Shown one piece after another: positions 53,731 through 55,585 of a DNA stretch of 55,585 bases. The notes under the pieces are model-generated. The model was not told the origin of the DNA, ran no database searches, and saw only the letters and a list, made by a program, of their open reading frames with translations. The translations under genes and the position numbers were made by a program. This DNA comes from Burkholderiaceae bacterium (lineage in GTDB: Bacteria > Pseudomonadota > Gammaproteobacteria > Burkholderiales > Burkholderiaceae_B), in NCBI GenBank assembly GCA_030728985.1, contig JANQYI010000036.1:1-55585 (forward strand), read 5' to 3'. Every line of letters begins with the position of its first letter. Position 1 is the stretch's first letter.

Positions 53731-54588
53731 ATGGCTCAACACACAGATCGCATCGCTGCTGCGTTTGCTCGCGCGGCGCAACAGAAACGCGCTGCGCTGA
53801 TTCCTTATATTGCAGCGGGTAACCCACTGCCCGAAACCACCGTGCCTTTAATGCATGCGTTGGTCAAGGCAGGGGCTGATGTCATCGAACTTGGTATTCC
53901 TTTTTCAGATCCGATGGCAGATGGTCCCGTGATTCAGCGTGCTGCTGAGCATGCCATCGCCCAAGGCATAGGACTCAAGCATGTGTTGGTGATGGTGGCG
54001 GAGTTTCGCAAACAAGACCAAGCCACACCAATTGTGTTGATGGGTTATGCCAATCCGATCGAAAATATGGGTCAACAAGCCTTCGCCGAACAGGCTGAAA
54101 AAGTAGGTGTCGATGGTTTGTTGACGGTGGACTACCCGCCCGAAGAAATTGACGACTTTGTGGGCTTGCTCAATCAACACCATATCGCGCCGATTTTCTT
54201 GTTAGCGCCGACCTCTACCGAGACGCGTATTCGCGCTGTGGGCAAAATCGCGCGTGGTTATGTTTATTACGTCTCACTCAATGGTGTGACGGGTGCTGGC
54301 CACCTTGACACCGCGGATGTGGCGATGCGCCTCAAGTCAATTCGCCAGCATGTTGCTTTGCCGGTCGGTGTAGGTTTTGGTATCAGTGACGCAAAAAGTG
54401 CGCAGAGTATTAGTCTCGTGGCCGATGCGGTTGTGATTGGTAGCAAACTGATCGATACGATGACCAAAGCCGCTGCAGGTCTGCCTATGGCTCAACAATC
54501 CCAGGCTGCGATAGATGCGGGAGCGGGTTGGTTGGCGGGCATTCGCCAAGCATTAGATGTGGCGCGATCTGCGGAGCATGCTACATGA
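53731..54588 (+). CDS. trpA: Tryptophan synthase alpha chain
   Basis: TrpA cleaves indole-3-glycerol phosphate and passes indole through a tunnel to TrpB. The 285-residue TIM barrel has the catalytic residues E53 and D64 in [16 protein letters not shown] and the phosphate-binding [11 protein letters not shown] block. Its stop overlaps the accD start by four bases. Confidence 0.98.
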
Positions 54589-55472
54589 GCTGGCTCGGTA
54601 AGCTCCTTCCCCCCCGCATTAACAAGGCTCCAGGCCAGGAAACCGTCACCGTCAGCAAACGTGTCCCTGAAGGACTTTGGGTCAAGTGTCCCTCTTGTGA
54701 ATCGGTGCTCTACAACGAAGATCTTGCAGCGAATTTACATGTGTGTCCTAAATGTGATCACCACATGCGTATCGGATCCCGTGCCCGCATCGAATCTCTT
54801 CTGGATATCGAGGGTCGCGTCGAGATCGGTTCAAACACGCGATCGATGGATCCTTTGAAATTCAAGGACTCGCGCAAATACCCAGAACGCGTTCAAGAAG
54901 CAGTTCGTCAAACAGGCGAAACAGACGCGTTAGTCGTGGTCAGTGGTGCAATCCGCAGCGTTCCGTGTGTACTGGCTTGTTTTGAGTTTGAGTTTATGGG
55001 CGGCTCGATGGGTTCCGTTGTTGGTGAGCGTTTCGTGCAGGGCGTACAAGCAGCGATTAAAAACAAGGTCCCTTTCATCTGCGTCGCGGCTTCGGGTGGA
55101 GCGCGCATGCAGGAGAGTTTGTTCTCTCTGATGCAAATGGCTAAAACCAATGCGATGCTGACTCGACTCTCAGACGCCAAACTTCCCTTCATCAGTGTTC
55201 TGACGGATCCCACCATGGGTGGCGTTTCCGCAAGTTTTGCATTCATGGGCGATGTCGTGATTGGAGAACCCAAAGCCTTGATCGGCTTCGCAGGGCCCCG
55301 CGTGATCGAGCAAACCGTACGAGAAAAGTTGCCAGAGGGTTTTCAGCGCTCGGAGTTCTTACAGCAAAAAGGTGCTATCGATATGGTGCTGGATCGCCGT
55401 CAGTTGCGCGAAGAGCTCGCGCGCTTGATGGCGATCATGACCAATCAGCCCATGGACAGTGTCGCTGCCTAA
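54585..55472 (+). CDS. accD: Acetyl-CoA carboxylase carboxyltransferase subunit beta
   Basis: AccD pairs with AccA to transfer the carboxyl group from biotin to acetyl-CoA, making malonyl-CoA for fatty acids. The 295-residue protein has the zinc ribbon C35, C38, C54, C57 (CPSC and CPKC) and the carboxyltransferase core, including [18 protein letters not shown] and [12 protein letters not shown]. The ATG overlaps the trpA stop. A strong terminator follows 20 bases after its stop, so folC, often next, is not co-transcribed through this point. Confidence 0.98.
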
Positions 55473-55492: not shown

Positions 55493-55528
55493 AAAAGCGG
55501 TACATCAACTCGTTGATGTACCGCTTTT
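55493..55528 (+). terminator. Rho-independent terminator of trpBA-accD
   Basis: AAAAGCGGTACATCAA (55493-55508) and TTGATGTACCGCTTTT (55513-55528) form a perfect 16-bp stem around CTCG. The U-rich end of the stem is TTTT followed by AACTT. The hairpin directly precedes the group II intron. Confidence 0.93.
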
Positions 55529-55533
55529 AACTT

Positions 55534-55585
55534 GTGCGCCCAGCATGGGCGCACTCTTGCGGGTGCAAGTCCCGCCGTAAGTTGA
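55534..55585 (+). mobile_element. Group II intron, class C (IIC), 5' end only (cut by window end)
   Basis: The sequence starts with the group II 5' splice motif GTGCG. The next 50 bases, GCCCAGCATGGGCGCACTCT then GGGTGCAAGTCCCGC, match position by position, with compensating changes, the start of domain I of IIC introns as I recall it from the Oceanobacillus iheyensis intron (GUGUGCCCGGCAUGGGUGCA...GGGUGAGAGUCCCG). GCGCCC/GGGCGC and GCGGG/CCCGC form the expected first helices. It begins five bases after the accD terminator stem, the known target type of IIC introns. Domains II-VI and the reverse transcriptase gene are beyond the window. Confidence 0.85.

Follow-up and report, generated by a model that had tools for sequence, protein, structure and literature searches.

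The accD contig of a Burkholderiaceae genome bin probably ends inside a two-copy group IIC intron

The window is a stretch of 55,585 nucleotides that comprises the whole of contig C36 in a Burkholderiaceae genome bin (G000; 44 contigs, 2.35 Mb, 86.66% complete), and its final base, 55585, is also the final base of the contig. Close to this end lies accD, which encodes acetyl-CoA carboxylase carboxyltransferase beta (54585–55472, forward strand; TIGR00515, 410 bits against a cutoff of 317) and whose terminator is the insertion target. The terminator hairpin, i.e., the intron target motif, occupies positions 55493–55528 on the same strand with a 16-bp stem and a 4-nt loop, and RNA folding assigns it −23.2 kcal/mol (z = −8.5). 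A T-run hairpin likewise lies 3′ of accD in the relatives L060–L063. The accD hairpin is absent from the output of a simple terminator scan that needs at least five T in the eight bases 3′ of the stem, though RNA folding gives it, because the T-run pairs with an A-run inside the stem and leaves a short tail. The hairpin is followed on the forward strand by AACTT (55529–55533), the 5′ exon bases that adjoin the intron and presumably hold IBS1; the second copy of the genome, behind rplI, has GTCTT instead. The remaining 52 bases (55534–55585, forward strand) correspond to the 5′ end and the start of domain I of a group IIC intron, which the contig end cuts off, and the last 55 bases (55531–55585, forward strand) recur exactly as the last 55 bases of another contig in this genome, C12, where the assembly breaks at a repeat. 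The first-pass annotation had described the 16-bp hairpin, AACTT and the 52 bases 3′ of accD, and both coordinates and folding agree with it to the base.

The 52 bases are identical at every position (52/52) to the 5′ end of a complete intron of 1855 nt from the same genus, L036. Three same-genus genomes (G001, G003 and G004) carry matches of 100% over 52–54 query bases, five in all, with a best E value of 4e-22, and matches at E ≤ 0.01 occur in 27 of 101 genomes, the own genome included. The same bases match 207 plasmid records (E ≤ 1) and 67 of 5426 E. coli genomes, with an identity of about 79–81% among the matches listed, while the first 300 nt of L036 match 246 plasmid records, 148 of them over at least 80%. 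The matches to the 52 bases lie far above the chance level. Rfam returns no match reaching its gathering score on the window end. Two matches at E ≤ 1 are found, and the better one, Spd-sr07, would fit the view that the 52 bases belong to a different conserved RNA, a small RNA or a repeat, that does no more than resemble a group IIC 5′ end; this match, however, reaches 32.8 bits, short of the gathering score of 55, and is confined to the terminator hairpin and the A-rich stretch. Moreover, the 52 bases run on into complete maturase-bearing introns in L036, L039 and L040, which refute this view; it was rejected, with a residual probability close to nil. The window end is thus best read as the start (5′ end) of a group IIC (class C) intron that the genome carries in two copies, with a probability of about 0.95.

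The complete relatives also settle the class that the first-pass annotation had proposed, since the introns to which the 52 bases are identical match the Rfam families RF02001 and RF01998. L036 (G003:C414), the same intron as L093 in the record CAIPID010000414.1 of an uncultured beta proteobacterium MAG, reaches 117.6 bits with RF02001 (cutoff 32) and 43.9 bits with RF01998. The Rfam families for group II domains D1–D4 match 6 of 12 scanned relative loci, and the remaining six hold short or rearranged pieces only. The 469-aa frame of L036 and the protein of L040 score 405 and 400 bits, respectively, with TIGR04416 (cutoff 300); both carry RVT_1 and the GIIM maturase domain and have no endonuclease domain, and the closest solved chain to the L036 protein is the GsI-IIC reverse transcriptase (RT; E 1e-128). 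At its 3′ end, L036 folds into a domain V-like hairpin that bears a 2-nt bulge, followed by domain VI, and ends in AU. No Rfam family, RF00029 included, matches this 3′ end (L036:2782–2856) at E ≤ 1. In a single-contig genome (G050), the copies L039 and L040 agree over about 1.86 kb save for one base and then diverge. L036 is the one complete intron among three longer copies from the genus: L047 carries internal deletions, and in L038 the match is limited to the first 593 nt.

The bin holds two intron 5′ ends, one at the window end and the other closing contig C12, where it follows the terminator of rplI (TIGR00158), as expected from the earlier suggestion that further copies might sit behind other terminators. 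In both cases, the intron lies in the sense direction directly behind the terminator stem-loop. Two intron 3′ ends are also present, one at the end of contig C33, where it lies just past the rne 3′ end and runs on the other strand from rne, and one in the first bases of contig C23, before dnaB; both hold the final bases only, i.e., the 3′ strand of domain V and domain VI. C36 and C12 share exactly their last 55 bases, and C33 and C23 likewise share exactly 55 end bases. End overlaps of the maximal k-mer length at repeats are reported for metaSPAdes and MEGAHIT in a passage of PMC10914622, and exact sharing of 55 bases is what an assembly interrupted by a two-copy repeat leaves behind. The window would therefore stop at intron base 52 because this repeat defeated a de Bruijn assembler run at k = 55, and the intron interior was presumably left out of the bin. 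Intron 5′ or 3′ pieces are also seen at contig ends in G001, G003 and G080 and in many public contigs. It appears that multi-copy group IIC introns break assemblies and leave a short intron piece behind a terminator at contig ends.

The arrangements accD–intron–rne and rplI–intron–dnaB are proposed from synteny rather than from reads, and the accD–rne join is the stronger of the two. Of 29 same-genus accD loci, 20 have a convergent rne 3′ end no more than 1.5 kb beyond accD, and in the other nine it was not found. When the window flank and the C33 flank are joined, the product aligns with L060–L063 over the hairpin and the rne end. By synteny, then, the gene that follows the insertion, for which the first-pass annotation had placed the element between accD and its next neighbour, would be a convergent rne, and because rne converges on accD, the insert would also separate rne from the accD hairpin. 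Among the relatives, the 23-base 5′ signature of the intron finds at most 16 matching letters in each of the 28 same-genus accD loci with downstream sequence, of which four extend over 254–872 nt instead of about 1500, one locus with a single base (L088) being left out. Upstream of dnaB, the signature likewise finds at most 14 of 23 letters in 26 same-genus loci, two of which (L222 and L223) have less than 100 nt upstream, and rplI lies upstream of dnaB in 22 of these 26. In one of them (G015, L213), rplI is about 0.12 kb from dnaB, and the site directly behind the rplI terminator has no intron. The rplI–dnaB interval measures about 0.9–1.15 kb in the other 21 loci (from the L210–L235 set) and would, by synteny, be short in the window genome. 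None of the accD or dnaB loci covered shows the intron, and such empty sites point to past insertion or loss only.

What the two copies contain between their ends is less certain. The first-pass annotation had expected a maturase/RT frame, which is present in L036 and L040, but the RVT_1 profile has no match in the bin, where the interior is missing. Similarly, a whole domain V-like hairpin is predicted by folding in L036, while RF00029 (domain V) has no match in the bin and matches in 5 of 14 control genomes; this negative carries little weight, because Rfam finds nothing in the complete L036 3′ end either. Since the bin lacks the interior, with the RT and the larger part of domain V, both copies could be internally deleted, ORF-less group IIC introns that moved in trans or are dead. 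The missing RVT_1 match would fit such copies, as would the internal deletion of L047 in the same genus and the existence elsewhere of RT-less copies that keep both ends (about 178–699 nt). Yet the bin is 86.66% complete, a short repeat contig that was not binned would account just as well for the absence if the intron is full-length, and L036, from the same genus, has a whole RT frame; internal deletion is accordingly regarded as unlikely. Its more specific form, in which the genome has no group II RT of its own and both copies spread in trans, therefore depending on a borrowed or lost RT, is somewhat less probable still. Among the ORF-less copies with both ends, one of 653 nt is present twice in a single Zoogloea MAG, at different sites (L089 and L162), which suggests that it may have moved in trans; another, of 699 nt, comes from a Rhodoferax MAG (L111), and miniature copies with both ends measure about 414 nt (L249), 223 nt (L252) and 178 nt (L251). 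An E. coli plasmid (L240) also carries what was judged by eye to be an ORF-less or miniature group IIC intron.

A different possibility is that accD and rplI are followed by no more than the beginning of the intron, as solo 5′ fragments. Such pieces exist: of 38 copies that are not cut by the end of their stretch, 12 stop within 150 nt among the matches listed, a count that includes L189 and L129, with only 292 and 613 nt behind their start. Among the first 12 relatives, L043, L044/L051, L046 and L049 are also 5′-only behind terminators, with an intron match that ends at 69–102 nt. Two intron 3′ ends at syntenic partners in the same bin nevertheless argue against solo fragments, which would moreover put the same 55-mer at the start of the downstream chromosome, and the bin holds no contig of that kind. 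This possibility is thus considered very improbable, and two introns interrupted by the assembly remain the preferred reading. Solo 5′ fragments, often of 36–150 nt and with no recognisable 3′ end, were also seen at L107, L124, L150, L158, L172, L208 and others, and the L049 fragment sits on a 149-kb contig of a three-contig genome (G079:C2). Short fragments are expected to be over-represented, because the assembler resolves pieces below about one k-mer and breaks at longer repeats, so the excess of 5′-only fragments is likely inflated by assembly bias and is not claimed as a new phenomenon. Pieces with only a 3′ end could not appear, because the search was seeded with the 5′ end; a 3′-end search of the same 101 genomes matched 21, and 12 places were compared with two introns. 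For one fragment on a Klebsiella plasmid, the empty site was not found: 8 of 3839 matching records cover at least 80% of the query, and among the best 60 of the 3839 nearly all cover at most 40%. The literature consulted on truncation of such introns held nothing that settles the question of the 5′ fragments, and no claim is made that they are unpublished.

The association with terminators extends well beyond the accD and rplI copies. A scan of genome contigs yielded at least 120 stretches with at least 121 copies; seven complete introns among them doubled as the comparison panel, with 3′ ends set by motif. Among the matches listed, 109 of the 119 copies preceded by 50 nt or more have a hairpin directly upstream (a stem of 7 bp or more, with four or more G-C pairs, in the 50 nt that precede the intron), compared with 11 of 117 control places located 250 nt further upstream, and 108 of those 109 hairpins end within 11 nt of the intron. 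A run of at least four T in the last 20 nt is likewise found in 99 of 119 copies against 6 of 117 controls (among the matches listed). Together with the two copies of the window genome, these counts bear out the insertion behind terminators that had been recognised at accD. Much as in the window, 83 of 121 copies among the matches listed break off within the intron where the stored stretch ends, a few of them perhaps at chunk ends. The 5′ exon ends of 41 copies from six hand-picked genomes read TCTTT in 9 of 10 Herbaspirillum copies and TTTTG in 3 of 3 Azoarcus copies and are mixed in Chitinimonas and Hydrogenophaga, a pattern that seems compatible with a short IBS1.

Passages of PMC4424553, PMC8919778 and PMC3522654 describe class C introns as inserting behind intrinsic terminators with no endonuclease domain, and the same passages hold that these introns are thought to prime from the replication fork. 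By analogy with the class, the intron RNA and its RT/maturase would reverse-splice into DNA at the terminator stem-loop and a short IBS1, and the insert would then be copied into DNA using replication-fork primers. The host would be little harmed, because the transcript of the host gene would end before the intron. For the two copies of the window genome, it is seen directly that they lie behind terminators and that relatives have intron-free sites, and we infer from the class their reverse splicing, their priming and any present activity.

These observations add a two-copy group IIC intron, and intron-free counterparts of both its sites, to a betaproteobacterial genus represented largely by draft genomes. 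They also indicate that multi-copy group IIC introns can scar assemblies, such that a contig ends one k-mer into the intron behind a terminator and the RT is missing from the bin. An RT-based intron survey would miss G000 for this reason, and RF00029 negatives are weak evidence where introns of the L036 family are concerned.

Compared with known systems, the intron is an ordinary group IIC intron and shows no departure from known members of the class. The closest counterpart, L036, has the same first 52 bases and also lies behind a terminator hairpin, and its 3′ end is 98% identical over 54 bases to the 3′ ends of the window genome; it differs in its site and in that its interior is known, whereas the interior of the window copies is absent from the bin. 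The likeness to class C introns of the GsI-IIC type lies in terminator targeting and, for the relatives, in a protein that combines RT and maturase domains in the absence of an endonuclease domain. This similarity holds at the level of the family only, and the window copies are known here by their sequence. The group IIC-attC introns of integrons, as treated in part of PMC4424553, belong to the same ribozyme class, whereas the target used here is the terminator hairpin behind accD and rplI.
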